NCBI GenBank assembly: GCA_035606695.1
Contig: DATNEW010000031.1
Span: forward strand, 186,001-250,000
From: Gemmatimonadaceae bacterium
GTDB taxonomy: Bacteria; Gemmatimonadota; Gemmatimonadetes; Gemmatimonadales; Gemmatimonadaceae
Direction: 5' to 3'
Length of the DNA: 64,000 nt
Position 1 is the stretch's first letter; the number at the start of each line of letters is the position of its first letter. This document shows positions 47,317 through 64,000 of this stretch, in pieces. The notes beneath the pieces were generated by a model. The model saw only the letters and a list, made by a program, of their open reading frames with translations. It made no database searches and was not told the origin of the DNA. The translations under genes and the position numbers were made by a program.

Positions 47317-47389
47317 GTCAGTATGGTGTCACGCGGAACCGCGAGTCCGCCAGGGTCGATTGCCCTGGGTTGTCCTGAACCGCGATCGA

Positions 47390-49480
47390 TTACCAGCCGC
47401 TGACGCGCGCAGGCTTCACCTGCCACGTCGTTCCGGTACGCGTCGCTTCGGAATGGAACGTGGCGGTGCGATTGCGCGTCGGTCCGGCGGCGGTGACCCA
47501 GCGCATTGCCACGCGAAAATCGATCGAGCCGGCTTGATCGGTCACTTGCGGCTGATCGGGATCTACGGAGACGACGCTGAAGTTGTAGCCGTCCTTGACG
47601 GTGCCGAGCATGTCGCGCGCCGTCTTGTCGTCGACGAGCAACGAGGAGAGCGTGACGACATTGCGGTTGCGCAGCGCGGCGGCGATGGCGGCCTCGGCAT
47701 CGCGCAGTGCAGTCACTCCCCCCGCTCGTACCTCTTCGGCGGTTGGCTTCGGTGCGGCGGTCGTCGTCGGCGCCGGCGACGGCGGCACGGCCGCGGGGCG
47801 ATTCAACTTTGCTGAATCGGCCGCCTTCGCGGCCGCCGACGCATCGGACGCATTCGTCGGCGTATTGGCCGGCGCGTTCGAAGTCTGTTGTCGCGTTACA
47901 TCGGGAGCGCCCTTCTGCGACGACGCGTTCGGCTGCGCGGGCGTCGATGTGCCCGCGGCGCGGTTGGGTGCCGCGGCGGTGTGTTGTTGCGTCGGGTTGA
48001 CGATTACGCGCTTTGCGGTGTCGGTCGCCGAGCCGCCGCGCTGTATTGCCGGCGGATTGGTTCCGACGGCGCTCGAGTCCACCGCCGGTTGAGGCGAGGT
48101 CGCCGCCGCCGGTGCGCCTGCCTGTTGCGACGACTGCGTGCGAGCGCCGTAGATCTTTGCGGAGATGACGATCGCCCCGACGGCGACGGGCACCGTCGCG
48201 GCCAGAAGCACGACGCGCGATCGTCGGCCCGTTGCGCCGACGGATTCCGGCGCGAGCGGTGACGGCGGGACCAAGCCCGCGGGCGCGAGAACGGTGCTGT
48301 CGCCGTCACGCTTCGTCGACACCGGCGTGACCGGCGTATTCGCCTCCAGCCGCCGTTTCTCCGATTCACTCGGCGTTGCGAGTCGCATCAGCTCTTCGCG
48401 CACGGGATCGTTTTCCGCGACATACACGGCGCCGAGGGCGTCGAGCGCGTCGGACATGCTGGCGAAACGCTGGGCGGGGTCTTTCGAGAGCATGCGCAGG
48501 ACCGCGGCTTCGAGCTCGGGCGGGCAGTCGGGCACGCGCTCGCGAATGGGATGCGGGACGTCGGCGGTGTGCGCCTGCATCACCACGAAGCGGTTGCCGA
48601 GAAACGGCGCGACGCCGGTCAACATTTCGTACGCAACGACGCCGAGCGAATACTGATCGACCGCGGCGGTGATCTCGCGGCCGATGATTTGTTCCGGCGC
48701 CATGTACGCGGGCGTGCCGATGATCGCACCCGTCTGCGTGTGCGTGGGCGACTCGGCGACTTTCGCGATTCCGAAATCCGTGACGATGACCATTCCGTCG
48801 GTCGCCGACACGAGAATATTCGCCGGCTTCACGTCGCGGTGGGTGACGCCGTTCTTGTGCGCGAACGCCAGTCCGCGGCCCGCTTGCGACAGCACCGCGC
48901 GCACGACCGGGATGGGAAGGGCGCCGTTGCGGCGGATGATCGTGTCGAGCGAGCGGCCGTACACGAGGCCCATCACGAAGAAGTCGAGCCCTTCGGCCTC
49001 GTAGTCCTGATAGACTTTTGCAATATTAGGATGCTCAAGACGCGCGTTCGTCTGCGCCTCGAACCGGAATCGCCGCACGAGCTCTTCGTCGGTCGCGAGC
49101 GTGGGGGACATCACCTTGATCGCGACCATGCGCTTGAGGCGCACCTCGTGCGCGAGAAACACCGCGGCCATGCCGCCGCGGCCAAGCTCGCGAATGATCT
49201 CGAACTGACCGGCGGTGGCCTTGCGCAAGCGTTCCGTGACGCTCGCCCACGGACCGCGGCGCGAGGAATCGTCGTCGCTCGAGCCTTCGGTGATGTTGGC
49301 CGCGTCCACCGTCGAGCCGCAGCTCGGACACGTCGCATCGCCCGCCGTCAGCGGCCGCGAACAGCTCGTGCAGGTACGCACGAGGGCGCCGCATTCCTGA
49401 CAAAAGCGGTCCGTCGCCTGCATCGTGTGGCGGCACGCGGAACAGACAGGCAGGGAAGCGTTTAGCGACATTGGCCCCAT
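47390..49480 (-). CDS. Second transmembrane Ser/Thr protein kinase with double zinc ribbon
   Basis: About 696 residues (ATG at 49480; 49471 or 49507 are possible). Two Cys pairs at the N-terminus form a double ribbon (CSACR...CQECG, CTSCS...CPSCG). The kinase domain is intact: GRGGMAAVFLAHEVRLKRMVAIKVM, HRDVKPANILV, DFGIAKV, GTPAYMAPEQ, DQYSLGVVAYEML. Then come an SES/KRR linker, one TM (VVLLAATVPVAVGAIVISA), a long Ala/Pro/Thr/Gln spacer and a C-terminal NTF2-like domain (VTALRDAEAAIAAALRNRNVVTLSSLL...DFRVAMRWVT). It has the same architecture as the neighbouring kinase, indicating tandem duplication with divergence of the sensor. Confidence 0.93.
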   Translation of the reverse strand: MGPMSLNASLPVCSACRHTMQATDRFCQECGALVRTCTSCSRPLTAGDATCPSCGSTVDAANITEGSSDDDSSRRGPWASVTERLRKATAGQFEIIRELGRGGMAAVFLAHEVRLKRMVAIKVMSPTLATDEELVRRFRFEAQTNARLEHPNIAKVYQDYEAEGLDFFVMGLVYGRSLDTIIRRNGALPIPVVRAVLSQAGRGLAFAHKNGVTHRDVKPANILVSATDGMVIVTDFGIAKVAESPTHTQTGAIIGTPAYMAPEQIIGREITAAVDQYSLGVVAYEMLTGVAPFLGNRFVVMQAHTADVPHPIRERVPDCPPELEAAVLRMLSKDPAQRFASMSDALDALGAVYVAENDPVREELMRLATPSESEKRRLEANTPVTPVSTKRDGDSTVLAPAGLVPPSPLAPESVGATGRRSRVVLLAATVPVAVGAIVISAKIYGARTQSSQQAGAPAAATSPQPAVDSSAVGTNPPAIQRGGSATDTAKRVIVNPTQQHTAAAPNRAAGTSTPAQPNASSQKGAPDVTRQQTSNAPANTPTNASDASAAAKAADSAKLNRPAAVPPSPAPTTTAAPKPTAEEVRAGGVTALRDAEAAIAAALRNRNVVTLSSLLVDDKTARDMLGTVKDGYNFSVVSVDPDQPQVTDQAGSIDFRVAMRWVTAAGPTRNRTATFHSEATRTGTTWQVKPARVSGW

Positions 49481-49589
49481 GTATTCTGAAGTTGGGAGAT
49501 GGGACATTTGTCCGCAATGACTCGCCCGGTTGAGTGGGTCATGATAACTTCGCGTTCAGGCCTGGAAATCCAATCGTCGCGGAGAATGC

Positions 49590-50258: not shown

Positions 50259-52709
50259 ATGATGAGTTTGCAGCACCGCGTTGCGGTCTCGAGTGTGTTG
50301 GCGCTGCTTGCCGCCGGTGTGTCGTGCGGTGGGGGCGGCGCGTGTCCGGTCAGCAATCCGAATTGCGAGTCGCAGACGCAGAACCCGAGCGTGACCGGCG
50401 TCACGATCTCCGGTGCGCCAAGTACGGCGATCGCGGTCGGGCAAACGGCGCAGGTAACCGCATCCGTGACCGTGACGGGCGGCGCGGCGCAAACGGTAGC
50501 GTGGACGTCGGACAACCCGGCCGTGGCGACGGTGAGCGCGGCCAATCCAACAACTGTAACAGCGATCGCGCCGGGCACGACGAACATCACCGCGCGCTCG
50601 ACGGTGGACGGAACGAAGTTCGCCACCGCACCGATCACTGTCGCGGGCGTCAGCACCGTGGCGCTCAACGTGACCGCGCCGCAAACGATTCAGATCGGAC
50701 AGACGACGACACTCACCGCGAACGTCGCGACGTTCGGCGGAGTGGCGAGCACCGTCACGTGGAAGTCGTCGAACACCAACGTCGCGACGGTGACGCCGAG
50801 CGGCAACACGGCGTCGGTGAAAGGGCTGGCCTCGGGAACCGCCACGGTGACGGCAACGTCTTCGGTGGATGGCCAGAAGTCGGCGGCACTCGTGTTCACA
50901 GTCGTCGCGGCGCAGCCCGTCGCGAACTGGACGCCCGGGAAAGTGGCGATCGTCGGCGGCCCGATGACCGGCGCCGTCACCGGCATGTGGGGCAGCGGCA
51001 CGTCGAGCGTCTTCGCGGTAACGGACAACGGTGAGATCGCCCACTACGACGGCACGCGGTGGCAGTCGAGTCTCAGCGGAAAGAATCCGTTCAACGGCGT
51101 ATTTGGAAACAGTGCATCCGACGTGTTCGCCGTGGGGAACGGGAGCCTCTTCCATTTCGACGGAACGAATTGGACGTCGCAAACGATTCCCGTCAGCTCG
51201 AAGCTCTTCGCCGTCTGGAGCGCAAGTAGCTCGACGGCATTCGCGGTCGGGCAGAGCGGCACGATCATCCGGCTCACCGGCGGCACGTGGAGCACGATGA
51301 CGTCTCCGACCGCGCAGGATCTGCATGGCGTATTTGGTTTCGGCGCCTCGGACGTGTACGCCGTCGGAAGCGGCGGCGTGATTCTGCACTTCGACGGTAC
51401 GACGTGGACGTCGATGAGCTCCGGTACCTCGCAAACGCTACGCGGCGTCTGGGGCACGAGCACCGCGAACGTCTTCGCCGTCGGCGAAGGCGGCACGATT
51501 CTACACTTCAACGGCAGCGTGTGGGGGGCCATGTCGAGCGGTACGACTGGCGTCCTCACGGCGGTCAGCGGCGCCGGCACGAGCGACGTCTATGCAACGC
51601 TCGCGAACGGATCGTTGCTCACGTTCAACGGCACGTCGTGGGGGCCGTCGGGCATCGCGCTGACCTTCGCGGGCACGCTCAACTATCGCGACTCGGTCCT
51701 CGCTGTCTGGGACGCAGGCGCGAGCGTCGCGTTCCTCGGAGGCTCCGAAGGCATGACGGGCATTTACCGTCCGCCCGGCAACTCGCTCGCCGGCATGACG
51801 CTGCTGTCGCTCAATCCCACGCTCGAGAGCGTGCAGCAATTCGGCAACGTCGACGTCGTCGTGGGCACGTACGGCACCATTCAACAATTCGACGGCACAT
51901 CGTGGACGGCGGTGAACTCACCGACGTCCGGTACGCTGCTTGGATTGTCTCCGCCGTTCGCGGTCGGCGCCGGGGGCACGATCCTTCGCTTCAGCGGGAA
52001 CGCGTGGACCGGCATGACGAGTCCCGTCACCGCCGACCTCAATTCGGTGTGGGCGAACAGCAGCACCGACGCGTTCGCGGTCGGCGGCGGCGGAACGATT
52101 CTCCACTTCGACGGCGCCACGTGGACCAAGATGACGTCGAACACCACGGCGCTCCTCCTCGGCGTGTGGTCCAGACCCGACGGCAAATCGGTGTACGCCG
52201 TCGGACGAAGCACCATCATGCACTTCGACGGCACGACGTGGTCGGCCATGTCGCTGCCCGTGTCCACGGATATCTCGGCCGTGTGGGCGTTCGCCGATGC
52301 GTCCAATCCGACGATATCATCGAACGTGTACGCGGTGGGCTTCGACGGATCGATCCTCGTCAACACGCCGCCGAGCAACGTGTGGACGAAGATGTCGGCG
52401 CCGGTGTCGACGCCGCTGTTCTCGATCTGGGGCAACAGCGCGGCCGACATTTACGCCGGTGGCTTCAACGGCACCATCCTCCACTTCGACGGCTCGACCT
52501 GGGGCGCGATGACCAGCAACACGACGATCTCGATCTCGGGCATCGGCGGGTCGTTCTCGACGGGGATCTTCGCCGTCGGCCAGGCGGGAACCGCGGTGCG
52601 CGGGACGCCGCCGGCGAGCGTGGTGAGTCAAAAAAACAGTGTCGTCCTGAGGAAGCGAAGCGACCGAATCGGGATGACTCCTCCAGCGCCTAGGTCAATT
52701 GCCCCATAG
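50259..52709 (+). CDS. Lipoprotein with two BIG2 Ig-like domains and ~14 propeller repeats
   Basis: 816 residues. A signal peptide ends in AAGVSC, a lipobox with Cys23 or so. Two bacterial Ig-like (BIG2) domains follow: VTGVTISGAPSTAIAVGQTAQV... and LNVTAPQTIQIGQTTTLTANV..., each ending in the TAxxxGTxxITA pattern. From about residue 225, a ~40-residue unit repeats some 14 times: VYAVGxGGTILHFDGTTWxxM, with one degenerate copy; this suits two seven-bladed propellers. Likely a surface-exposed binding protein. The last ~20 residues are encoded by a fragment of a dispersed repeat, so the original end was probably near GTAVRGTPPAS. Confidence 0.82.
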   Translation: MMSLQHRVAVSSVLALLAAGVSCGGGGACPVSNPNCESQTQNPSVTGVTISGAPSTAIAVGQTAQVTASVTVTGGAAQTVAWTSDNPAVATVSAANPTTVTAIAPGTTNITARSTVDGTKFATAPITVAGVSTVALNVTAPQTIQIGQTTTLTANVATFGGVASTVTWKSSNTNVATVTPSGNTASVKGLASGTATVTATSSVDGQKSAALVFTVVAAQPVANWTPGKVAIVGGPMTGAVTGMWGSGTSSVFAVTDNGEIAHYDGTRWQSSLSGKNPFNGVFGNSASDVFAVGNGSLFHFDGTNWTSQTIPVSSKLFAVWSASSSTAFAVGQSGTIIRLTGGTWSTMTSPTAQDLHGVFGFGASDVYAVGSGGVILHFDGTTWTSMSSGTSQTLRGVWGTSTANVFAVGEGGTILHFNGSVWGAMSSGTTGVLTAVSGAGTSDVYATLANGSLLTFNGTSWGPSGIALTFAGTLNYRDSVLAVWDAGASVAFLGGSEGMTGIYRPPGNSLAGMTLLSLNPTLESVQQFGNVDVVVGTYGTIQQFDGTSWTAVNSPTSGTLLGLSPPFAVGAGGTILRFSGNAWTGMTSPVTADLNSVWANSSTDAFAVGGGGTILHFDGATWTKMTSNTTALLLGVWSRPDGKSVYAVGRSTIMHFDGTTWSAMSLPVSTDISAVWAFADASNPTISSNVYAVGFDGSILVNTPPSNVWTKMSAPVSTPLFSIWGNSAADIYAGGFNGTILHFDGSTWGAMTSNTTISISGIGGSFSTGIFAVGQAGTAVRGTPPASVVSQKNSVVLRKRSDRIGMTPPAPRSIAP
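52641..52678. repeat. Partial dispersed repeat inside the 3' end of the propeller gene
   Basis: The sequence GTCGTCCTGAGGAAGCGAAGC, then CGGGATGAC at the right end, keeps both terminal motifs of the dispersed palindromic family, but in a short form. It supplies codons for the last residues of the propeller lipoprotein. Its resemblance to the other copies is weaker than theirs to each other. Confidence 0.5.
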
Positions 52710-52900: not shown

Positions 52901-54721
52901 ATGCACATTTGGCGACGGAGTCGAATTGCGCGCCAGTGGGTTCGATCGATCATCGCACCCATCGCCTGTACGGCGCTGGTGTCCGCGTGGATCGGCGCGT
53001 CCAGCCGGACGTCGTCGGCGAAGACCGTCCGACATGTCCGACGAGTCCAGCAGGACCGGCAGGTCCAGCAAGGCGGCGACCCGCACGCGGCCGTCTTCGC
53101 CGAGTCGGAGTATCCGTCCGCGTCGCAGTGCGCGTCGTGCCATCAACAGATCTACCAGGAGTGGGCGAGCAGCAATCACGCGTACGCGTCGACCTCGCCC
53201 GTCTTTCACAAATTCGAACAGCGCATCAACGATCTGTCACACGGCACGATCGGATACTTCTGCATGCGCTGCCACGCCGCGGTCGGCACCACGCTCAACG
53301 AGCGCCGCGATCTGCCGCTCACCGAGCGGTCGCAGGTGTCGCGCGAAGGCGTGACGTGCGTGACGTGCCACCGTGTGTCGGAGCGGTTTGGCCGCGTCAA
53401 CGGCGAACGGCGCATGGAGCCGGGCAACATCAACGCGCCGGTCTATGGTCCCACGGGCGGTTCAGGACTGGCGCCCGTGTTGGCCGACAAGGGTCACTAC
53501 GCCGTCAAGACGAGTGCGAGCGAGACAGGCCCGGGTCAGAACATTCACTCGGCCGCGATCAAATTCGACCAGCTCGACAAGAGCTCATTCTGCGTGTCGT
53601 GTCACCAGGTGGCCGTCCAACCGGGCATCAAGCTCGAGGTGGTGTGGGATCAGTACCGCGCGTCACCGGCAGCGAAGCAGGGCGTCACGTGTCAGGATTG
53701 CCACATGGGCAAGACGCCGGGCGTGGCCGACGGCTATGCGACAGGACCTGCCGCGATCGTCAATGGCATTCCGATCAATCCCACGCGCAGGCACACGAAC
53801 CATTCGTTCTTTGGCCCAGGATATCCGACCGCGCATCCCGGACTCTTTCCGCACAATCCAAACGCGCAGCGCTGGACGGCCGATCAGTGGCTCAAGTTCG
53901 ACTATCGCGCCGGCTGGGGCACGGATGCGTTCGAGAACAAGGTGACACCGCAGACCAGGTTCCCTAAGGACTGGGCGGAAGCGGACGATCGCTATGACGC
54001 GCGCAAGATCATCGATGCCAACCTTGCCTCGCTCGAGAAGAAGCGCGAGCTGCGTCGCGAAGTGATGGAGCATGGATCGCACATCGACGGGCCGTTCTTC
54101 AGCAGTGATCTGCGCGCCGGACAGTCGCTGCATTTCCGGTATCGCGTCTCGAACATCAATCCGGGACACAACCTGCCGTCAGGATCGCTTGGCGCGCAGC
54201 CGGAGCTGTGGCTCAACGTCGCGTTGATCGATCCCGACGGAAAGCGCGTGTGGGAGTCGGGCTATCTCGACAGCAACGGCGACATGGCCGACGAGCACTC
54301 GCTCGACGTGCGGGCCGGTAAGGTTCCGTACGACAAGCAGCTCTTCAACCTGCAGACGAAGTTCCTGACGACGGACGTCAAGGGCACCGACCGCGAGATG
54401 TATCTCCCGATCAATCTCGACATCGATCAACTTCCGTTCATACGTCCGGGCGGGCAGCCGATCACCGTGATGAACCACCCGCCGTTCATCCGCATGGAAG
54501 CACGCTCGTTGCCGCCGCTCAGCTCGCGCGACGCCGAGTACACGGTGCCGGCCGATGCGATGCGGAAGCCCGGCACGTACAAGCTCGCCGTGCGCATGCG
54601 CAGCCGTGCGGAGCCGATCTACTTCATGAAGTTCATCGGATCGACCAAGGAGATGGAGCGCACGATGAACGAATGGATGGTCGATCTGCATCCGTACACC
54701 GTCACGTTCACGGTTCGCTAA
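52901..54721 (+). CDS. Pentaheme c-type cytochrome
   Basis: 606 residues from the ATG at 52901, which begins a basic then hydrophobic export signal (RQWVRSIIAPIACTALVSAWIGASS). Five CxxCH heme sites lie at Cys77, Cys121, Cys153, Cys231 and Cys264, the third and fifth in GVTC(V/Q)(T/D)CH. Further His residues (HTNHSFF, NPGHNLPSG) can be distal ligands. From about residue 350 there is no heme; a beta-type domain follows (LHFRYRVSNINPGHNLPSGS, PELWLNVALIDPDGKRVWESGY) of the kind seen attached to periplasmic multiheme proteins. Its stop overlaps the start of the barrel gene by one base (TAATG). Confidence 0.9.
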   Translation: MHIWRRSRIARQWVRSIIAPIACTALVSAWIGASSRTSSAKTVRHVRRVQQDRQVQQGGDPHAAVFAESEYPSASQCASCHQQIYQEWASSNHAYASTSPVFHKFEQRINDLSHGTIGYFCMRCHAAVGTTLNERRDLPLTERSQVSREGVTCVTCHRVSERFGRVNGERRMEPGNINAPVYGPTGGSGLAPVLADKGHYAVKTSASETGPGQNIHSAAIKFDQLDKSSFCVSCHQVAVQPGIKLEVVWDQYRASPAAKQGVTCQDCHMGKTPGVADGYATGPAAIVNGIPINPTRRHTNHSFFGPGYPTAHPGLFPHNPNAQRWTADQWLKFDYRAGWGTDAFENKVTPQTRFPKDWAEADDRYDARKIIDANLASLEKKRELRREVMEHGSHIDGPFFSSDLRAGQSLHFRYRVSNINPGHNLPSGSLGAQPELWLNVALIDPDGKRVWESGYLDSNGDMADEHSLDVRAGKVPYDKQLFNLQTKFLTTDVKGTDREMYLPINLDIDQLPFIRPGGQPITVMNHPPFIRMEARSLPPLSSRDAEYTVPADAMRKPGTYKLAVRMRSRAEPIYFMKFIGSTKEMERTMNEWMVDLHPYTVTFTVR

Positions 54722-56250
54722 TGACGCGCCGACTCTCGTCGTGGCCGATCGCCGCGCTGGTGGTGATGCTGTTGAGCGCCGGCCTGCCGTGCGCCGCGGC
54801 GGCGCAGCAGAGCACATCGAGCGCGCGTCCCGACAGCGCGCACATGGATCCGCGCGCGCAGCCCGCGACGCACGATCGCTCGGTCTTCGCGGCCGATCCG
54901 AACTACGGCAATCCCGCCTACGACTATCAGGCGCAGCTCGACATCTATGGCGCGAAGCATCTCAACTCGACGCAGCGTCCGCTGCTCGAGCTGGGACGCG
55001 AGCTCTATCAGAGCGGTCCGTTCTCGCCCGCGCCGACGTTCCTGGGCTCGCACAACATCGTCATTCCGCAACTGCTCGTGTACGGCGACTTCCGTTCGGC
55101 GGCGGGAGGTTCCGACGCGGGCACGCAGATCAGCCGGTGGGGAAACCGGCTGAACCTCGACGTCGATCTCAAGATCACGGCGACCGAACGCTTTCACGCG
55201 TTGTTTCGTCCGTTCGAGGACAAAGGTCAGTTCACGGGCGCGACGTTCAGCGGCGACTCGACGGGCTTCAAGGGCCACTACAACGGCGATCCCGCGGCGC
55301 TGTTCTTCGAGGGCGACTTGGGCGCGATCGTCGGCGGTCTGACCGGCCATGACTCACCGTTCGACCTGCCGATCTCCGCCGGCCGCATGCCGCTGTTGTT
55401 TCACAACGGCATCTGGCTGCAGGACGCGTTCAGCGGCGCGGCGTTCGCGATTCCAGCGCGCAACTCCGGCTCGCTCGACTGGTCGAACTTCGACGGGAGC
55501 TTCTTTTACGGCGGCCGCGACGTCTCGAACTCGTTCGTCGGCAATGGGAAGGATCACGGGCAGATCTTCGGGACGAACACGTTCATCGACGCCTATCACG
55601 GCTATGTGGAGGCGGGCTACGCGTACATCGCCGGCGGCGACGTGACGCAGCCGGACTTTCATTCGGTGGCGCTGTCGTTCACGCGGCGTTGGGGCGGCAT
55701 CGTGTCGAATTCGGTACGGTACATCGGCGCGTTCAGCCAAGGTGTACCGACGGGCATCGTCACGCCGGCGGGGACGGCTGTGAATCCGACACCGAACGGC
55801 CATCTCTTTCTGATGGAGAATTCGTTCATCACGTCGCACGAGGCGACCGTCGTGCCGTATCTCAACTTGTTCTTCGGCATCGACAATCCGGTGTCGGCGG
55901 CGCGCGACCCTGGTGCGGGCGGCATTCTCACGAACACGGGCATCAATTTCGAGACGGACGCGATCACGGCGTTCCCCGCGCTCGACGCCACGGGACGCAA
56001 CTCGACCGGCGGCGCGCTCGGCCTCGAGCTCCTGGGCTCACAGCTCGATCGTCAAGTGGTATTTGAAGTCGCGACGGCGTATCCACATCAGACGAGCGCC
56101 GAGATGCCCGGCGGGCAGTACGCGTTCGGCATTCGCGCGCAGAAGGTGTTGAATCGCGCGATGATCTTTCGCGTCGATGGTATTGCCGGTAAGCGAACGG
56201 GCCTGCCCGACGTGCGCGGGATTCGCGCCGAGCTCCGCACGAAGTTCTGA
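54721..56250 (+). CDS. Outer-membrane beta-barrel protein of the cytochrome cluster
   Basis: 509 residues with a signal peptide (MTRRLSSWPIAALVVMLLSAGLPCAAAAQQ). The mature protein is rich in amphipathic strands and ends in VRGIRAELRTKF, a C-terminal Phe as for Bam-dependent barrels. Regular Gly/aromatic strand pairs (FHSVALSFTRRWGGIVSNSVRYIGAF, EATVVPYLNLFFGID, LDRQVVFEVATAYPH, YAFGIRAQKVLNRAMIFRVDGIAG) suggest about 16 strands. It starts on the last base of the pentaheme stop, so the two are coupled. A porin-like conduit or scaffold for the cytochromes is my inference; the N-terminal CxxC of MtrB proteins is absent. Confidence 0.75.
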   Translation: MTRRLSSWPIAALVVMLLSAGLPCAAAAQQSTSSARPDSAHMDPRAQPATHDRSVFAADPNYGNPAYDYQAQLDIYGAKHLNSTQRPLLELGRELYQSGPFSPAPTFLGSHNIVIPQLLVYGDFRSAAGGSDAGTQISRWGNRLNLDVDLKITATERFHALFRPFEDKGQFTGATFSGDSTGFKGHYNGDPAALFFEGDLGAIVGGLTGHDSPFDLPISAGRMPLLFHNGIWLQDAFSGAAFAIPARNSGSLDWSNFDGSFFYGGRDVSNSFVGNGKDHGQIFGTNTFIDAYHGYVEAGYAYIAGGDVTQPDFHSVALSFTRRWGGIVSNSVRYIGAFSQGVPTGIVTPAGTAVNPTPNGHLFLMENSFITSHEATVVPYLNLFFGIDNPVSAARDPGAGGILTNTGINFETDAITAFPALDATGRNSTGGALGLELLGSQLDRQVVFEVATAYPHQTSAEMPGGQYAFGIRAQKVLNRAMIFRVDGIAGKRTGLPDVRGIRAELRTKF

Positions 56251-56275
56251 GCGGTGGTGAGCCAGTGAGGAGCCA

Positions 56276-58450
56276 GTGAGGGTTGGCCGGCTCGCCGGAT
56301 GGGCTGCTACCTGCGCCGCCTCGGGGTTGGTCATCGCCGCGGTCTCGCTGTTTGGTCAGCAGCCCGGCCCGAGCTACAAGAGCTCGCCGTTCCTGCGCAT
56401 CGATCCGGACAAGGTCGTGATCACCGACGCGTCGGGGCAGAAACCCTGCGCCGACTGTCACCGCAATGAATGGCAGGTGTGGAAGGATACGCGTCATGCG
56501 CAGATGTACGACTCACTCACTCGAATGGCGTCGGCCAAGCAGTACATGCAGGCATTGGGGCTGCGCACCACCAAGCGGCAGGACGCGATCTGCATGCGTT
56601 GCCACTACACGGTGGGACCGGATCGCACGGCGATCGCCGGCGTGTCGTGCGAATCGTGTCATGGCGCGGCGCGCGACTGGATCAACGTTCACAACAAGTT
56701 CGCGCCCGGCGTGCGTGACCGGACGCAGGAAAGCCCGGTGCAGCACGAGCAGCGCGTCGCGGCGAGCCGCGCCGGCGGGATGCTGCGCCCGTCCACGGAC
56801 ATTTATGCCGTAGCGGCGAACTGTTTCGAGTGCCACACTGTTCCGATGGAGATCGTCGTCAACAAGGCCGGCCACTCGTCGGGCACGCGGTCGTTCGATC
56901 TCGTGTCGATGATCGACTCCATTCGTCACAATTTTCTAAATCCCGGCGGGCCGGTGGTGAATCGCCCGAACACGCCGGAGCAGAAGCGCGTGCTGTTCGT
57001 GATCGGCCGCATGCTGGCGTACGAGTACGCGCTGCGCGGCATGTCGACGGCGACGGTGGACAGCACCTATTCCGATGCGATGAACGTCCGCGCGAAGCGC
57101 GCGTTCACCGATTTGCAAACGATGAACGCGGCGCAGCACCTGCCGGCCGTTGACAGCGTGATGATGATCGCGCGAAAGGTGAAGCTGGTGCCGAACAATC
57201 GCGCGGAGCTGGAGCATGCGGCGGATCAGATTCGCGAGATCGGGCAGCGATTCGCGTCGGGCACGAATGGATCGACGTTGGCGGCGCTCGACCCGGTGAT
57301 CTCGGGGCATCCTGTCGCGGCGCCAGTGGAACAGGCGCCCGTTGCGGCGACGCCGCCTGCGGCGAGTGCTCCCGCAACGGGTGCCGGCGTCCCGGCGACG
57401 GCGCGTGGATCGAAAGGCGCGACGCCGCAACGCACAACCGCTGCGTCGACGGCGCCGGCATCGGCTCCCGCGCCGGCGGCCGCGCCGCCCGCGCACGTCG
57501 AGCTTCCCGGTCGCATTCGCAATCGTCCTGAGTGGTTCAACGCCAGCGGCCGCAGCGGATATTTGGGCGTCGACGCCTGCGCGCGCTGCCACGGCAAGGC
57601 GATGGGCTGGTGGAATCGCGACCCGCACAGCGAGAGCGCGTCGAAGCATTTGCTCGGTGAGGATCCGAAGGCGCGCCGCATCGCCGACACATATGGTATA
57701 GGCGCCGCCGGCATGGCTCGCCCCGACAACATGTGCATGAGCTGCCATGCGACGGTCGACGAAGGCCGGAAAGTGCAGATCGAGACCGGTGTGAGTTGCG
57801 AGAGTTGTCACGGGGCCGCGAGCGGGTGGAAAGATTCGCACCAGAAGGGCAACAACCCGCAGCCCGGCATGAGGAACCTGAAACAGGCGGCCGATCGGGC
57901 GCAGACGTGTTCAGGCTGCCATCGCATCACGGACGAGCGCCTGATCGCGGCGGGGCATACGACCGGCGCGAATTATGACTTTGCTAAAGCCAACGAGAAG
58001 ATCAAGCATTGGCCCGATGCGAAGGCCGATCAATTCCGTGCCGAGCATGGTGGCGCGGCGTATCAGGATGTGCCGGCGGCGGCGCTGACGGCGGCGTTTG
58101 CGGCGGCGGTGCAAAGCCGGCCAATTCCGAAAGTGGCGGTTGCTGCGGCGCCGACTCCGCCCCCCGTGCCGGCATCTATCTCGGCGCGTTCGCCGGCCGA
58201 AGTTTCGCCGTCCGCCGCCGACACCCCGTCGCCCACCGCCGACGCCCATACGCCCATACGCCCATACGCCCATACGCCCAAACAGGCCCCCACCCTCCCC
58301 TCGCGCATTCCCCCCAGCACCCGCAGCACGCCGGTCACACTCGATCTGCCGCCGCTGCCGCCGACGGCTCACATGACCACCGAAGATCTGCTGCTTCTCG
58401 TGAAGAAACGCATCGAACGAATTCAGGCCGCGATCGCGGGCCGCAACTGA
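56276..58450 (+). CDS. Octaheme c-type cytochrome built from two tetraheme modules
   Basis: 724 residues, GTG start with GAGGA five bases upstream; the start region is an 11-bp tandem repeat (GAGCCAGTGAG twice). A hydrophobic N-terminus (WAATCAASGLVIAAVSLFG) exports it. Hemes: Cys58, 106, 125 and 183, then a Pro/Ala-rich linker (about 345-410), then Cys435, 487, 508 and 545. Both modules have the same order, including GVSCESCHGAA and a fourth heme followed by GH, and resemble the tetraheme cytochrome c554 type. The C-terminal ~115 residues are Pro/Ala-rich and end in a charged helix (MTTEDLLLLVKKRIERIQAAIAG). An 8-bp repeat in the coding region lies at 58243-58282. Confidence 0.92.
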   Translation: MRVGRLAGWAATCAASGLVIAAVSLFGQQPGPSYKSSPFLRIDPDKVVITDASGQKPCADCHRNEWQVWKDTRHAQMYDSLTRMASAKQYMQALGLRTTKRQDAICMRCHYTVGPDRTAIAGVSCESCHGAARDWINVHNKFAPGVRDRTQESPVQHEQRVAASRAGGMLRPSTDIYAVAANCFECHTVPMEIVVNKAGHSSGTRSFDLVSMIDSIRHNFLNPGGPVVNRPNTPEQKRVLFVIGRMLAYEYALRGMSTATVDSTYSDAMNVRAKRAFTDLQTMNAAQHLPAVDSVMMIARKVKLVPNNRAELEHAADQIREIGQRFASGTNGSTLAALDPVISGHPVAAPVEQAPVAATPPAASAPATGAGVPATARGSKGATPQRTTAASTAPASAPAPAAAPPAHVELPGRIRNRPEWFNASGRSGYLGVDACARCHGKAMGWWNRDPHSESASKHLLGEDPKARRIADTYGIGAAGMARPDNMCMSCHATVDEGRKVQIETGVSCESCHGAASGWKDSHQKGNNPQPGMRNLKQAADRAQTCSGCHRITDERLIAAGHTTGANYDFAKANEKIKHWPDAKADQFRAEHGGAAYQDVPAAALTAAFAAAVQSRPIPKVAVAAAPTPPPVPASISARSPAEVSPSAADTPSPTADAHTPIRPYAHTPKQAPTLPSRIPPSTRSTPVTLDLPPLPPTAHMTTEDLLLLVKKRIERIQAAIAGRN
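58243..58282 (+). repeat. 8-bp tandem repeat inside the octaheme cytochrome gene
   Basis: ACGCCCAT occurs four times without spacer from 58243 to 58274, followed by a fifth copy with one change (ACGCCCAA). As eight is not a multiple of three, gain or loss of one unit would shift the frame of the last ~55 residues. All eight heme sites lie upstream and would stay intact. Confidence 0.85.
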
Positions 58451-58462
58451 TGGCGATGATGT

Positions 58463-60001
58463 ATGTCTGAAACGATCGTGATGATGGCGCGCCAATTCGA
58501 CGACCGCTGGTCGTCGCTCACCGCGCGCCCTGGACTCGCCGAGCTCTCGAGCTTGCGGCGCCCCGACCAGCTGCGGCAAATCGATCTGCTGCGCGAGTTC
58601 GACGACGATTTTCTGCGCGATATCAGTCCCGATCTCGCGATCGCGACCTGGGAGCCGCAAGCGACGCTGTTCAAAGCGGGGACGTATCTCGACGTTGCGT
58701 TCTATGTGTTGGACGGCACCGTCGATCTCGAGCTCCAGGTAGGTGACGCGCACCGCCCGATCTTCGCCACGCGCAGCGTCCCGCTTGCGACGGAAGATTT
58801 CAATCTCGCCCCCGGCGAGTCGCTGCGGATTGGTGCGGGCGACGTGTTCGGCGAGATCGGTGCGATGAACGGTTGGCCACAAGCCGTCACGGCACACACC
58901 GCAACCCGTTGTACGCTGCTTCAGATTCGCCTGCCCGCGTTGCGAAAACTCAAGCGCAAGTCGAAGGCGCTCAAACAGCGCATGGATCAGGTCTATCGCG
59001 AGCGGACGCTGCGACAGCATCTGCGCAGTACACCGGTCCTCCAAGGTCTTGCGCCCGAGCTGATCGACGCGCTCGCCGCGCACGTCGAGCTGGTATCGTG
59101 CCAGCCAGGCGACGTCGTCGCGCGCGAGGGATCGCCGGTCGAGCACCTCATTCTCGTGCGATCGGGCTCGCTGCGCATGTCGCAGGCGATTGGCACCGGC
59201 GAGATCGCGGTCTCCTACGTGAGTAAGGGCTCGACCGTCGGCGAGTCCGAGCTGCTCGTCGACGAGATGGCGACGTGGGAAGTGACGGCGACGTCGGTCG
59301 GCTACTCCGAGCTCGTGCGCATTCCGCGCGAAGACTTCCTGCGCGTGCTCAAGCGCGCGCCGGAGCTGGAGAAGCGCCTGTGGGCGATCGCCGGCGAGCG
59401 CATCAAGGAAATAGCGTCGCGGCGCGCGCACCTGGACCGCGCCGACCTGCTCGACTTCAGTCTCGCGAAAGGGCTCACACAAGCGAACAGCGTGCTCGTG
59501 ATCGATCTCGAGACGTGCACGCGGTGCGACGACTGCGTGCGCGGCTGCGCGAGTACGCACGGCGGCACGCCGCGCTTCGTGCGCGAAGGCGAGGTCCATG
59601 AGGGTTTTCTCATTGCGCGGTCGTGCTATCACTGCCAGGACCCAACGTGCCTCGTGGGCTGCCCGACGGGCGCGATCAGCCGCACCAACATCGGCGACAC
59701 AGTGGCGATCGACCCAGCGGTCTGTATCGGCTGCGGCTCGTGCGCCGAGAATTGCCAGTACGACTCGATCGTCATTCACGACCTTGGTGTCACGTGGGGA
59801 CCGGATGCGATGCCGCGCCATTTGCGCGGACAGCCGCGCAGCGTCGCGAGCAAATGCGATCTCTGTCGCGAGGCGCCGGAAGGTCCCGCGTGTGTATCGA
59901 GCTGTCCGCACGGCGCCGCGATTCGCGTCGCCGGCGCCGAAGAGTTCGACGTGCTGATTCAGACCAAGCGCCGCCGGCAGTTGCCGCTGGTGCCGGCGTG
60001 A
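58463..60001 (+). CDS. Double cNMP-binding-like domains fused to a four-cluster (16Fe) ferredoxin
   Basis: 512 residues, cytosolic (no signal). Two CAP/CRP-like sensor domains lie at about 42-165 (FKAGTYLDVAFYVLDGTVDLEL, GDVFGEIGAMNGWP) and 188-305 (LVSCQPGDVVAREGSPVEHLILVRSGSLRM, GSTVGESELL). Neither keeps the Arg-Ser/Thr pair that holds the cyclic phosphate (WPQAVTA and ATWEVTA instead). Residues 350-490 match the DmsB/HybA-type ferredoxin, with CTRCDDCVRGC, CYHCQDPTCLVGCP, CIGCGSCAENCQ and CDLC-x8-CVSSCP, i.e. four [4Fe-4S] sites. No DNA-binding domain is present. Its stop overlaps the cytochrome b start by GTGA. It is likely the cytosolic regulated electron relay of the complex. Confidence 0.9.
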   Translation: MSETIVMMARQFDDRWSSLTARPGLAELSSLRRPDQLRQIDLLREFDDDFLRDISPDLAIATWEPQATLFKAGTYLDVAFYVLDGTVDLELQVGDAHRPIFATRSVPLATEDFNLAPGESLRIGAGDVFGEIGAMNGWPQAVTAHTATRCTLLQIRLPALRKLKRKSKALKQRMDQVYRERTLRQHLRSTPVLQGLAPELIDALAAHVELVSCQPGDVVAREGSPVEHLILVRSGSLRMSQAIGTGEIAVSYVSKGSTVGESELLVDEMATWEVTATSVGYSELVRIPREDFLRVLKRAPELEKRLWAIAGERIKEIASRRAHLDRADLLDFSLAKGLTQANSVLVIDLETCTRCDDCVRGCASTHGGTPRFVREGEVHEGFLIARSCYHCQDPTCLVGCPTGAISRTNIGDTVAIDPAVCIGCGSCAENCQYDSIVIHDLGVTWGPDAMPRHLRGQPRSVASKCDLCREAPEGPACVSSCPHGAAIRVAGAEEFDVLIQTKRRRQLPLVPA

Positions 60002-60702
60002 CGACACCGCTGCCCGTCCTCGTCTTCGGCATTGGCGCCGCGATCTCCATGGCGGCGGTGATGGCGTATTCGGCGCGACGGTCGCGGCCACAGGTGCGCA
60101 AGCTCGGTCCCGCACGAACGTACTACCGCGTCCATGTCTGGGGCGGGCTGCTGTTCCTCGCGCTGCTCATCCTCCACATGAGCTTTCACCTGCCGCGCTC
60201 GGGATTTGGATTCATCCTCTGGGCCGCGAGCATCTGGGTGGTCGTCACCGGCACGCTCGGCTGGTTTCTCCAATGGCTCGTGCCCAAGGTGTTGACGCCC
60301 GCCTCGTCGTTCGAGGTCAACTACGAGCGCATTCCCGAATTCGTCAACGAGCTTCGCGGGCGGGCCGAAGAGGTCGTGGCGCGCGCGGAACCGCGCATCC
60401 AGAGCTATTACAGCCAACAGATGGCGAGCGAGCTCGCCGCGCCGCGCATGTCCGCGGCATCCCTGTTCGCGGGCGCGCGCGGCCGCTCGACCGGCGGCGT
60501 CGATCTGTTGCGGCGCACGCTATCGCCGGGAGATGCGGCTGTCCTCGATTCGTTGTGTCAAATCCAAAACTCCAAACGCGAGGTCGACGCGCACTACACG
60601 CTGCAGCGCGTGTTGCGCGGTTGGCTGACGATTCATTTGCCCGTTGCGATCGCGCTCGTCGGACTCGTCGTGCTGCACATCTTCTTCGTCGTGTACTTCT
60701 GA
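59998..60702 (+). CDS. Four-helix di-heme cytochrome b-type membrane subunit
   Basis: 234 residues, GTG start overlapping the upstream stop (GTGA). Four TM helices: about 5-25, 45-66, 72-95 and 208-232. His46/His60 in TM2 and His213/His227 in TM4 are each 14 residues apart, the spacing for two b hemes stacked across the membrane; His64 is a further candidate. A ~105-residue soluble segment between TM3 and TM4 (SSFEVNYERIPEFVNELRGRAEE...) is unusual. No signature of NarI or Nrf/Hyb subunits is recognised. It should take electrons from the Fe-S protein, or return them, and pass them to the periplasmic hemes. Confidence 0.78.
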   Translation: MTTPLPVLVFGIGAAISMAAVMAYSARRSRPQVRKLGPARTYYRVHVWGGLLFLALLILHMSFHLPRSGFGFILWAASIWVVVTGTLGWFLQWLVPKVLTPASSFEVNYERIPEFVNELRGRAEEVVARAEPRIQSYYSQQMASELAAPRMSAASLFAGARGRSTGGVDLLRRTLSPGDAAVLDSLCQIQNSKREVDAHYTLQRVLRGWLTIHLPVAIALVGLVVLHIFFVVYF

Positions 60703-60714
60703 TCGGATCGCACC

Positions 60715-62265
60715 GTGGCTGAGATTCCCCCAAACAACCGGCGGTTCGACAAGGGCTTTTTCACGCGCGAGCGATTCGCCGTCGCGGCGAAGTACCTCGC
60801 GATGCCGAATCGCGCGCGCTTGTTCAAGTACGGGGGTATCGCCGCGCTCGCGCTTGCGCTCGTCTTTCTCGCCGACGCCTTCATCGGCCGCGCGTCGTTC
60901 ATCGCCGGCCCGCTCTCGGCGAGGCACGCGTTGTTCGCGAAGAACTGCTCGTCGTGCCACACGGCGGCGCACGGCGCGCCGAACGCCAACTGCCAGAGCT
61001 GCCATCAGAAGTCAGCCGGCGAACGCCAGGTCTACGGATTCGCCAAGCACTATCAATATCGCTCGGCCGACGTCGATCGCTCGTCGCCGCACAGTCAGGA
61101 GATGACGTGCGGTACGTGTCATCGCGAGCATCAGGGCCGTCAGAACACTCTGCAGAACGTGGCCGACAACAAATGCGTCGGCTGTCACGACATGCGCTCG
61201 TTCCACAGCGGGCATCCGGAGTTCGAGTTCGCGCGGAAGAAGATTCCGAATCCGTCGAACCTCACGTTTCAGCACATACTGCACGTGCGCGAGGTGATGA
61301 AGGAGCAGAAGCTGTCGAACGCCGAGAACGCGTGTCTCTCGTGTCACACGCCGAAACCGGACGGCCGTACGTTCCAGCCGCTGTCGTACGCCAAGGCGTG
61401 CGACCGATGTCATTTGGGCGAGACCGAGTCGACGCCGTACATGCCGTTGAAGAGCGGCGGTCGGCCCGGCGTCGCGACGCTTGCCGAGATTCGCAAGAGT
61501 GCGTCGCCGGGCACGCAGTGGGCCGAGTATTGGAACGCCGACGAGTTCAGCGAGCAGGGTGGGGCGGTGAAGAAGCGGATCGTCTATCACGCCGACCCGT
61601 GGGTGCTCTACAACCTCCAGCAAATTCGGCATCAGCTGTATCCTGGCGCCGAGCTCGCGGATCTCATCAACACCACGGCGGAGCTTCCGCCCGAGCAGGC
61701 ACGCACGCTCTACGAAGAAGCGACGGGCACGCTACAGAAGCAGATCGAATCGCTGCGCGGCAACCAGTCGCCTGATGTGCAGAACGAGGTGTCGTCGCTG
61801 ACGCAGGTTCTCAAGCTGATTCAACAGCGCATCGACGAGCCGTATGCCCCGCTCGACGAAACGAAGTTCGCGGTGACGAACGGCGATCGATCGGGTGCCG
61901 ATGAACGCGCGTATGCGCCGGTGATCGATTCGCTCACCAAACCGTGCCAGCTCTGTCACACGGTACAGAAGGCGACGATTCGCCGTGTGAAGACGGATTT
62001 GCGGACGATGGTGCGCGCGGAGTTCGATCACCGCGCGCACGTGCTGCACGCCAAGTGTCTCGACTGCCACAATGTGATACCGTTCCGGCAGTACCTTGGC
62101 ACCGACGACAAGCCGGCGCCGAGCCAGGACAATGCGCAAATTGTGAATTTGCCGACGATCGAAAAGTGCCAATCCTGTCATACGAGCAAGGCGGCGCCGG
62201 CAACGTGCACAACCTGTCACCTCTTTCATCCGGACCGAGAGCATTGGGCGAGCCTGACGCGGTAG
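60715..62265 (+). CDS. Membrane-anchored decaheme c-type cytochrome
   Basis: 516 residues with a GTG start 12 bp after the cytochrome b gene. A ~38-residue cytosolic start and one uncleaved TM (GIAALALALVFLADAFI, 41-57) anchor it. Ten CxxCH sites occur at Cys78, 93, 132, 154, 207 and 229, then after a helical, heme-free segment of ~180 residues at Cys411, 448, 485 and 498. Close pairs such as CSSCH-x10-CQSCH and CQSCH-x8-CTTCH resemble cytochrome c3/c7-type packing. Free His (FKHYQ-like KHYQ, FQHILH, FDHRAH) can be distal ligands. It is likely the periplasmic acceptor of electrons from the cytochrome b. It overlaps the FHA gene by 22 bp. Confidence 0.92.
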   Translation: MAEIPPNNRRFDKGFFTRERFAVAAKYLAMPNRARLFKYGGIAALALALVFLADAFIGRASFIAGPLSARHALFAKNCSSCHTAAHGAPNANCQSCHQKSAGERQVYGFAKHYQYRSADVDRSSPHSQEMTCGTCHREHQGRQNTLQNVADNKCVGCHDMRSFHSGHPEFEFARKKIPNPSNLTFQHILHVREVMKEQKLSNAENACLSCHTPKPDGRTFQPLSYAKACDRCHLGETESTPYMPLKSGGRPGVATLAEIRKSASPGTQWAEYWNADEFSEQGGAVKKRIVYHADPWVLYNLQQIRHQLYPGAELADLINTTAELPPEQARTLYEEATGTLQKQIESLRGNQSPDVQNEVSSLTQVLKLIQQRIDEPYAPLDETKFAVTNGDRSGADERAYAPVIDSLTKPCQLCHTVQKATIRRVKTDLRTMVRAEFDHRAHVLHAKCLDCHNVIPFRQYLGTDDKPAPSQDNAQIVNLPTIEKCQSCHTSKAAPATCTTCHLFHPDREHWASLTR

Positions 62266-63263
62266 ACGACGCGCGAGCGCTGCTCGTGTGCAAGAGCGGC
62301 GACCTGGCCGGCACGAGATTCGAGATCGGGCGTGACGCGCTCATCGGTCGCGACGAGCGCGGGCGCGTGCAGGTCGTGAGTGGATCGCAGCGGGTGGCGG
62401 AATCGTTCGCGCGGATTTCCCATCGCGACGGACGGTACACGCTCGAGAGCACCACGGCCGGCGCCGTTCGTGTCGACGGCAATCCGGCGCATGGCGCTGT
62501 CGTGCTCGATCGGCGGCATCTGATAGCGCTGCCCGATGGAACGGAGCTCGTGTACAGCGTCACGCCGCCCGCGGCGCGGCCACAAGCACCCGCCAGCTCA
62601 CCCGCGAGCGCACCCGCGAGCTCGCCCCCGCCGTCGCAGCGTCGCGAACCGACGGTCGAAGCCCCGCTCGAGACGATGGTCGAATCCGCGTGGGGGGGCG
62701 TGCCCGAGCTCAAGCGCCGGCCCAACACGCCCGCCGCACAAGCGCCAGGTCAGCAACCTCCCGAGCGCATCATCACGGCGCCGCGCTCGAAGCAGGTGTC
62801 GGACGATCCGCCGGGCGGCACCATGGTCGACGCGAACCTGGGCGCGCTGCCGCCGCTCGTCCGCAAACCGGCGCCGCGCCCGCCGGCGAACGAACCGCCG
62901 GCAACGCACAGCACCGGCGACGACGACATCGGAACGCGCGTGTTCGAGCCGCCCAAGCCCGCGGTCGCCTACGAGGTCGTCGTCAAGGTGCCCGATCAGG
63001 AAACTCTAACGTACCCGCTCAAACACGGCGAGAACATCATTGGCCGCAGCAGCGAGTGCGACATCCAGCTCGCGGACCCGAACAAGTGGCTCTCGCGCAA
63101 GCACGCGATGGTTCGCGTGTCCAACGATCTCGTCGAGCTGATGGATCTCAACGGCATGAACGGAACGTACCTGAACGGTGCGCGCATCACCAACGCGGTC
63201 CTTGTTCCGGGCACCTCGTTCTACCTCGGCCCCAACGTGGAGCTCACGCTCCGTCAACGATGA
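62244..63263 (+). CDS. Double-FHA-domain protein
   Basis: 339 residues. The start is probably the TTG at 62244, since the first FHA domain begins soon after (ALLVCKSGDLAGTRFEIGRDALIGRDE) and no ATG is near; this overlaps the decaheme gene by 22 bp. The N-terminal FHA is less typical (SFARISHRDGRYTLES). A ~140-residue Pro/Ala-rich linker with TMVESAWGGVPELKRRP and TMVDANLGALPPLVRKP, two related motifs, follows. The C-terminal FHA is canonical: ENIIGRSSECDIQL, LSRKHAMVRV, ELMDLNGMNGTYLNGARI. FHA domains bind phosphothreonine, and the repeated TMV motifs may be kinase sites. It is coupled to the flavoprotein gene by ATGA. Confidence 0.88.
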   Translation: MGEPDAVDDARALLVCKSGDLAGTRFEIGRDALIGRDERGRVQVVSGSQRVAESFARISHRDGRYTLESTTAGAVRVDGNPAHGAVVLDRRHLIALPDGTELVYSVTPPAARPQAPASSPASAPASSPPPSQRREPTVEAPLETMVESAWGGVPELKRRPNTPAAQAPGQQPPERIITAPRSKQVSDDPPGGTMVDANLGALPPLVRKPAPRPPANEPPATHSTGDDDIGTRVFEPPKPAVAYEVVVKVPDQETLTYPLKHGENIIGRSSECDIQLADPNKWLSRKHAMVRVSNDLVELMDLNGMNGTYLNGARITNAVLVPGTSFYLGPNVELTLRQR

Positions 63264-64000
63264 GCTCTGCCTCTTCCACCAGCGCGCCCGAGTCGACGGC
63301 GCATCGCATGTCGCTCGCGCAGACCGACGTGCTCGACATGCTCATCGTCGGCGGCGGACCCGCCGGCACCTCGGCCGCGTTTCGCGCGCGCGAGCTGGGT
63401 CTGCGCGCGCTGCTGATCGACTTCGACGACATCCTCAAGCGCATTCGCGATTATCCCAAGGACAAGTTGATCCTTCCGGATTTCGGCGGCGGCGATCGCA
63501 TGGCGTTCCCCGCCGGCGACAAATGCGTCAGCGCGCTGCAATTCGAGCCGATCGACAAGGACGACATGTGCGCGCGCTGGAAAGGATTGTACGACGAATT
63601 CCAGATTCCCGCGCGCACGGGCCTCGAGCTCCAGAGCGCCGAGCGGGAAGATGACGCGTGGAAGATCACCACGTGGGATCACAAGGCGGGCGCGGCGCAG
63701 GTGTATCGCGCGCGACACGTCGTGCTGGCAATCGGACGCGGCGTACCGCGCCGGCTCGATCTGTCGGGGAACACCGAGGGCATTCGCTATCGCCTCGACG
63801 ATCCCGCCAACTACTGCGGAAGCCCGGTCCTCGTCGTCGGCGGCGGCACCTCGGCCGCCGAGGCGGTGCTGGGTATTTCGGCCGCGAAGATCGCGGCCGG
63901 TGATTCGTGCGGCGTGTACTGGTCGTTTCGGGGCACGCGCATGCCGCGCGTCTCGAAGGCGCTGGCCGAGCAGTTCTTCGAGGCGTACATCGGCAACGGC
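63260..64000 (+). CDS. FAD/NAD(P)-dependent oxidoreductase, N-terminal 247 residues (3' end outside window)
   Basis: The ATG overlaps the FHA stop (ATGA). The frame is open to the window end. The FAD site is MLIVGGGPAGTSAAFRARELG with the acidic end of beta-2 in LLIDFDD; the second dinucleotide site is PVLVVGGGTSAAEAVLG, and HVVLAIGRGVPRRLDLSG is the linking ATG-like motif. It belongs to the thioredoxin-reductase/YpdA-like two-dinucleotide-fold group. No CxxC redox pair is visible in the part present. It is the natural NAD(P)H entry or exit point for the Fe-S/cytochrome chain. Only the window edge truncates it. Confidence 0.88.
   Translation, partial: MSSASSTSAPESTAHRMSLAQTDVLDMLIVGGGPAGTSAAFRARELGLRALLIDFDDILKRIRDYPKDKLILPDFGGGDRMAFPAGDKCVSALQFEPIDKDDMCARWKGLYDEFQIPARTGLELQSAEREDDAWKITTWDHKAGAAQVYRARHVVLAIGRGVPRRLDLSGNTEGIRYRLDDPANYCGSPVLVVGGGTSAAEAVLGISAAKIAAGDSCGVYWSFRGTRMPRVSKALAEQFFEAYIGNG

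Follow-up and report, generated by a model that had tools for sequence, protein, structure and literature searches.

The closest described system to the locus analysed here is PCC4, in which a porin is combined with three periplasmic cytochromes (4, 5 and 10 hemes) and a di-heme-b-like inner-membrane protein (He et al. 2017, PMC5566968). The inner-membrane protein carries two WX3HX13H motifs together with SGXXG. An Fe-S gene (PF13247) precedes the gene for this protein in subgroup II and was once annotated as a single gene with it (PMC5566968). PCC4 is a genome prediction, mostly from iron oxidisers, for which Proteobacteria and Planctomycetes were given as carriers and which was drawn as electron uptake to quinone (PMC5566968). 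KSB1 and Planctomycete MAGs have also been reported with PCC genes, and a 2026 survey presenting related layouts argued that PCC-bearing MAGs mostly export electrons, the organisms being heterotrophs. A ten-heme cluster labelled 'forkhead-associated protein' appears, with no remark on it, in a Gallionellaceae pangenome.

The window (the whole stretch of 64,000 nucleotides that was analysed) holds a cluster of eight ORFs, all on the + strand, as determined by an ORF check of the window plus the continuing contig. The features are as follows.

52901..54721, + strand: pentaheme c-type cytochrome, 606 aa, periplasmic (5 CxxCH; 5ze8 profile match)
54721..56250, + strand: outer-membrane beta-barrel (porin), 509 aa (AlphaFold model and Foldseek)
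56276..58450, + strand: octaheme cytochrome, 724 aa, a duplicated cytochrome c554-like tetraheme (8 CxxCH; half-versus-half alignment)
58463..60001, + strand: cNMP-FeS relay, 512 aa, cytoplasmic (Pfam cNMP_binding and Fer4; 16 Cys)
59998..60702, + strand: di-heme b inner-membrane protein, 234 aa, four membrane helices (invariant His; model)
60715..62265, + strand: decaheme cytochrome, 516 aa, with an N-terminal membrane anchor (10 CxxCH; Cytochrome_C7/c3 Pfam)
62244..63263, + strand: FHA-domain protein, 339 aa, cytoplasmic (Pfam FHA 3.9e-17)
63260..64000 in the window and on to about 65590 (L004:3261-5591), + strand: flavoprotein, 776 aa when whole (Pfam)

An earlier note on this DNA had described eight co-directional genes with overlaps, and both were borne out when the ORFs and junctions were re-checked. 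The junctions were TAATG at 54719-54723, GTGA at 59998, where the relay gene overlaps the di-heme b gene by 4 bp, and ATGA at 63260, while the FHA-protein gene, with a TTG start, overlaps the decaheme gene by 22 bp at 62244. The 23 c-type heme motifs previously counted were also recovered, with 5 + 8 + 10 CxxCH across the three cytochromes. The operon ends with the flavoprotein gene and the next downstream gene is on the opposite strand; this gene (L004:5603-8194, - strand), convergent with the operon, encodes an RCC1-repeat-like secreted protein. Directly before the operon, at 50259-52709 (+ strand), lies the gene for an 816-aa lipoprotein-like protein that contains Ig-like stretches and numerous repeat units of the WxxMSSGTT type.

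To survey the distribution of the cluster, 84,980 species genomes were scanned with an alignment of the relay protein, giving at least 80 loci in a listing biased toward the query. Among the matches listed, the full order of pentaheme, barrel, octaheme, cNMP-FeS, cytochrome b, decaheme, FHA protein and flavoprotein was found in Gemmatimonadota, Rhodothermia/Bacteroidota, Acidobacteriota and Calditrichota, the Calditrichota loci having insertions. Close variants were found, again among the matches listed, in Ignavibacteria, Zixibacteria, KSB1 and Nitrospirota; in Ignavibacteria and Zixibacteria the order is the same only from the tetraheme on. A four-gene core (tetraheme, cNMP-FeS, cytochrome b and decaheme) is also present in Planctomycetota, Verrucomicrobiota and Alphaproteobacteria, where the pentaheme-barrel pair is often near the core or divergent. 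In KSB1, Ignavibacteria and Zixibacteria, a large ten-heme protein occupies the place of the pentaheme-barrel pair. At six loci (L063, L075, L077, L081, L082 and L083), a ten-heme protein of about 1250 aa and a tetraheme relative with three CxxCH replace pentaheme, barrel and octaheme. The adjacencies of cNMP-FeS to cytochrome b and of cytochrome b to decaheme were nearly complete where both genes were seen among the matches listed. The pentaheme-barrel pair is a separable module on a constant core. Most relatives are MAGs, and phyla with a single locus (Nitrospirota) may be binning errors. Within the own phylum, clear relatives were present in only three of 395 genomes, namely G397, where the eight genes are all present in unchanged order, G278, where the first six are followed by the contig end, and G302, which has a shorter form. 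No clear copy was found within the same genus in one set of five genomes, nor in another set of four. In the relay tree, the window protein groups with the other Gemmatimonadota copies. The genes are kept together across phyla in an order far beyond chance, and the cluster is a true unit.

The relay protein contains two cNMP-type domains and matched Pfam cNMP_binding (2.2e-25) and Fer4 models including PF13247 (2.3e-6). Its 16 Cys fall into quartets at 352/355/358/362, 388/391/396/400, 421/424/427/431 and 465/468/477/481, a spacing for four [4Fe-4S] clusters that agrees with the 16Fe relay claimed before. The adjoining inner-membrane protein contains the His pairs H46-X13-H60 and H213-X13-H227; all four His are invariant in 41 homologues, upholding its assignment as a cytochrome b, and G85 and G88 are likewise invariant. 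Its second motif, W209-X3-H213-X13-H227, is an exact WX3HX13H, while in the first Tyr42 replaces the Trp found in 87% of the family, and TGxxG stands where PCC4 has SGxxG. In its confident structural model (pLDDT 92), the four membrane helices are accompanied by a long helical insertion. Foldseek gave no match to this model below E 0.001, and PDB profile searches found no homologue of either this protein or the barrel. With a second structural aligner, the cytochrome b6f chain 2e74_A was matched at Z 8.3, among helical bundles, which supports the predicted di-heme b fold without proving it.

The earlier note knew of no described complex with this combination of parts. This does not hold, as PCC4 unites a porin with 4-, 5- and 10-heme cytochromes, a di-heme b inner-membrane protein, an Fe-S protein and a redox gene (PMC5566968). 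The window cluster resembles subgroup II in its porin, its 5- and 10-heme cytochromes, its member of the tetraheme family, its protein with HX13H pairs and a further redox gene, as well as in the Fe-S gene (PF13247) directly upstream of the inner-membrane protein gene. Alphaproteobacterial and Planctomycete loci of PCC4 layout are homologous to it. However, the hemes number 5, 8 and 10 instead of 4, 5 and 10, the 8 belonging to a duplicated tetraheme of the same family that has 4 in the relatives. In addition, the redox gene of PCC4 precedes the tetraheme gene, whereas in the window a gene for a TrxR-like, FHA-bearing flavoprotein stands last in the operon. Because of this last position, we class the cluster, matched to PCC4 by described layout, as an extended variant of PCC4 rather than as a plain member. 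New relative to PCC4 are the octaheme, the TrxR-like flavodehydrogenase, the FHA domains (with a separate FHA gene and, occasionally, a kinase gene), the change of Arg to Gln in the cNMP domain, by which the Arg is lost, and the occurrence in phyla outside the PCC4 list. No description of a cNMP domain, an FHA-flavoprotein or a kinase neighbourhood in such an operon was found in open papers.

Other systems share fewer features. PCC3 and the giant-multiheme clusters of Gemmatimonadota relatives (for example L041, L042 and L048) have a similar di-heme b protein (about 25% identity), multiheme cytochromes and a nearby TrxR-like flavoprotein, but their cytochromes carry 16-34 hemes and neither a cNMP-FeS relay nor an FHA gene could be recognised in them. 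Seven loci of Gemmatimonadota relatives (L041, L042, L045, L048, L052, L054 and L055) are PCC3-like, with 13-34-heme cytochromes beside a TrxR-like flavoprotein; the aligned flavoproteins of this set have an N-terminal Fe-S region, and some of the loci have a di-heme b protein. The Verrucomicrobial porin-MHC system was also considered and set aside, its porin partner being an eight-heme protein in a layout that differs as far as the text tells (PMC5615132).

The flavoprotein gene is cut at the window end. The FAD/NAD(P) domain claimed from the truncated sequence was confirmed, and extension of the contig past 64 kb showed that the gene runs on to about 65590. In the whole protein of 776 aa, a TrxR/YpdA-like FAD-NAD(P) domain is followed by two FHA domains and, at the end, by a Fer2-like domain (Pyr_redox_3 2e-19, FHA 7.8e-25 and Fer2 1.9e-5). 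The Fer2-like domain (L004:5374-5591, or about 65373-65590 in window numbering) has the pattern Cys-x4-Cys-x2-Asp...Cys, in which the third Cys ligand of a plant-type [2Fe-2S] cluster is Asp726; Asp occupies this position in all aligned members of the FHA clade. The domain could hold an unusual Cys3Asp cluster or could have lost its cluster.

Gene fusions in relatives join neighbours of the chain and so indicate the order of the electron path, from flavoprotein to FeS protein to cytochrome b. The cultured Sphingobium herbicidovorans encodes a TrxR-like flavoprotein and the cNMP-FeS protein as one fused polypeptide, with the cytochrome b and decaheme genes following. A second kind of fusion, of the cNMP-FeS protein with cytochrome b, occurs at loci of KSB1, Nitrospirota and Caldithrix. 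The Sphingobium locus (L146, strain MH, plasmid pMSHV, 7759-12934; genes B6S01_RS18455-18445) encodes an 825-aa fusion that joins two cNMP domains and four [4Fe-4S] to the TrxR-like flavoprotein, followed by cytochrome b and decaheme; a 1329-aa ten-heme protein is encoded 2 kb further on, and twelve Sphingobium plasmid records match the region. In the Planctomycete/Verrucomicrobial clade, the flavoprotein is replaced by a reductase with FNR-type FAD/NAD-binding and Fer2 domains. As two different flavin folds fill the same role, the NAD(P)H linkage appears to be what selection keeps. Gene order and fusions together back the earlier proposal of a single electron-transfer unit running from FAD/NAD(P) through [4Fe-4S], b hemes and c hemes to the outer membrane.

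NADPH oxidase and ferric reductase likewise have two stacked transmembrane b hemes that receive electrons from an NAD(P)H flavin module, and in them a cytoplasmic reductase drives electrons outward across the membrane. The window differs from these enzymes in its TrxR-like flavin fold, the four intervening [4Fe-4S] clusters and the multiheme c chain on the far side, and the structural matches of its di-heme b protein include cytochrome b6f chains but not NADPH oxidase or ferric reductase. The similar topology argues for outward flow, as does a host with terminal oxidases (three COX1 genes) and no RuBisCO match in its genome. Inward flow to NAD(P) would oppose both the redox potential and the membrane potential. 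Of respiration, redox sensing and extracellular electron transfer, among which the function had been left, extracellular transfer is now the most likely as judged from the sequences.

We infer the outward direction, the donor, the acceptor and the regulation in the following scheme. The cytoplasmic TrxR-like flavoprotein would oxidise NAD(P)H and pass electrons, by way of the Fer2-like domain and the four-cluster cNMP-FeS protein, to the two b hemes across the inner membrane. On the periplasmic side the anchored decaheme would accept them, after which the octaheme and pentaheme would carry them to the outer-membrane barrel and an acceptor outside. Ser/Thr phosphorylation, read by the FHA domains of the flavoprotein and of its partner protein, would switch or assemble the entry module. 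On balance, we regard the cluster as a probable PCC4-variant, phospho-controlled conduit for electrons from NAD(P)H to the outside.

The same parts could run in the opposite sense, with electrons from outside Fe(II), Mn(II) or reduced humics entering by the barrel and the c hemes and reaching the di-heme b protein, where they would feed the quinone pool and, along a side branch, NAD(P). Such uptake is how the published PCC4 model, built on genomes of Fe(II) oxidisers, was drawn (PMC5566968), and conduits of this kind can be reversible. However, the host lacks a RuBisCO match, most carriers belong to phyla usually called heterotrophic and the 2026 survey argues for export by most PCC-bearing MAGs. 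Moreover, an NAD(P)H-type flavoprotein and four clusters would hardly be needed if electrons stopped at quinone, and uptake is therefore considered unlikely.

On the outer-membrane side, the N-terminal heme domain of the pentaheme is related to Thermochromatium tepidum c552 (PDB 5ze8; profile search, E 2e-17). The pentahemes of cable bacteria, which form one family with ExtKL, have likewise been compared in structure to T. tepidum c552 (PMC11976967). The pentaheme gene is paired with the barrel gene in relatives. The barrel had no Pfam or NCBIfam family match; its AlphaFold model (pLDDT 76) has about 18-20 long strands and resembles OprD/OccK, MOMP and AlgE barrels (Foldseek, E about 1e-11). 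The MtrB sheath has 26 strands, and since the modelled barrel is narrower, a heme wire through it is unproven. For the octaheme, the N and C halves aligned to each other at E 3e-15 with 30% identity, and the N half shares about 40% identity with the 4-heme proteins at PCC4-type loci; these alignments show that the octaheme arose by tandem duplication of the cytochrome c554-like tetraheme of the family. All 10 CxxCH of the decaheme are invariant in 19 homologues. Assignment of the decaheme to the DmsE family (MtrA) was rejected, as it scored 19.5 against a cut-off of 192.2, and the Hmc complex gave only a partial HmcA-like match (37 against a cut-off of 400 bits). MtrAB and MtoAB combine a DmsE-family decaheme with a large MtrB barrel, whereas the window cluster matches neither family. 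No extracellular cytochrome was evident in the window cluster.

The likeness of both heme proteins to the small-molecule multiheme proteins c554, c552 and MccA, and of the barrel to the substrate-specific OprD/OccK channels, would also fit a periplasmic reductase, in which the pentaheme or octaheme is a terminal enzyme for nitrogen or sulfur compounds and the barrel a mere substrate channel. No match exceeded any enzyme-family cut-off, however, and the pentaheme-barrel pair is separable from the constant core, with the large ten-heme protein substituting for it in some relatives. A terminal reductase is accordingly judged improbable, more so than uptake.

The conduit reading also includes control, for which two built-in signal-binding modules, cNMP-like and FHA, had been put forward. 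The cNMP part stands as a real fold but without its ligand Arg. In the cassette of relay cNMP domain 1, Glu131 is kept and Arg is replaced by Gln140; among the matches listed, this position is Gln in 30 of 30 window-clade relays and Arg in 47 of 48 other rows, the sole exception being Ile in L087. The Gln relays form one clade (support 99), so the Arg/Gln change represents one evolutionary event, and its association with the FHA genes is inseparable from shared descent. In the window clade, the cNMP domain has probably become a structural relic or else binds another ligand. The FHA part fared better, as pThr residues are kept and kinases adjoin several relatives. The alignment of the FHA protein showed an intact pThr-binding motif (GRS / SRKH / NGT); in the flavoprotein, the second FHA domain keeps the pThr residues and the first is degenerate. 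A Hanks-type kinase gene, counted by BLAST, lay within the cluster or at most 1 kb away from it at 9 of 30 FHA-clade loci compared to 0 of 43 in the other clade, among the matches listed (Fisher p 1.5e-4, the loci being not fully independent). In the window no kinase gene touches the cluster, the nearest being at 47390-49507 on the opposite strand. It belongs to a tandem Ser/Thr kinase pair (45409-49507, - strand) located 3.4 kb upstream of the first operon gene. The host genome has 37 kinase matches, and hence the FHA domain could serve any host kinase. The actinobacterial GarA/OdhI share with the window an FHA domain (by sequence matches), the reading of Ser/Thr kinases and a tie to central redox metabolism, but are stand-alone inhibitors, whereas the window FHA domains are built into a redox enzyme. 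The Acidobacterial locus L087 (9878-15193) encodes a cNMP-FeS protein, an FHA protein and an FHA-flavoprotein without cytochromes; upstream of these, a kinase-like gene lies on the opposite strand.

That electron flow through the relay merely reports the redox state to FHA or kinase partners, and is not respiration, would suit the pThr residues, the kinase neighbours and the cytochrome-free L087, but 23 hemes and an outer-membrane barrel surpass the need of a sensor and most loci have the full wire, making this highly improbable.

The outward conduit from NAD(P)H is therefore retained as the preferred reading. Among the matches listed, about ten phyla contain a PCC4 core that includes a cNMP-FeS relay, and the fusions tie such a core directly to a flavoprotein of the NAD(P)H type. 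FHA parts are present in one clade, where its sister clade keeps the cNMP residues. Tentatively, and at somewhat less than even confidence, NAD(P)H-driven extracellular conduits may be widespread, with control of the entry enzyme by FHA domains and Ser/Thr phosphorylation replacing the cyclic-nucleotide control of the sister clade. The Sphingobium plasmids provide a cultured carrier of the core, making the core testable. If the reading is true, bacteria of soil, sediment and groundwater could export the reducing power of NAD(P)H under kinase control.
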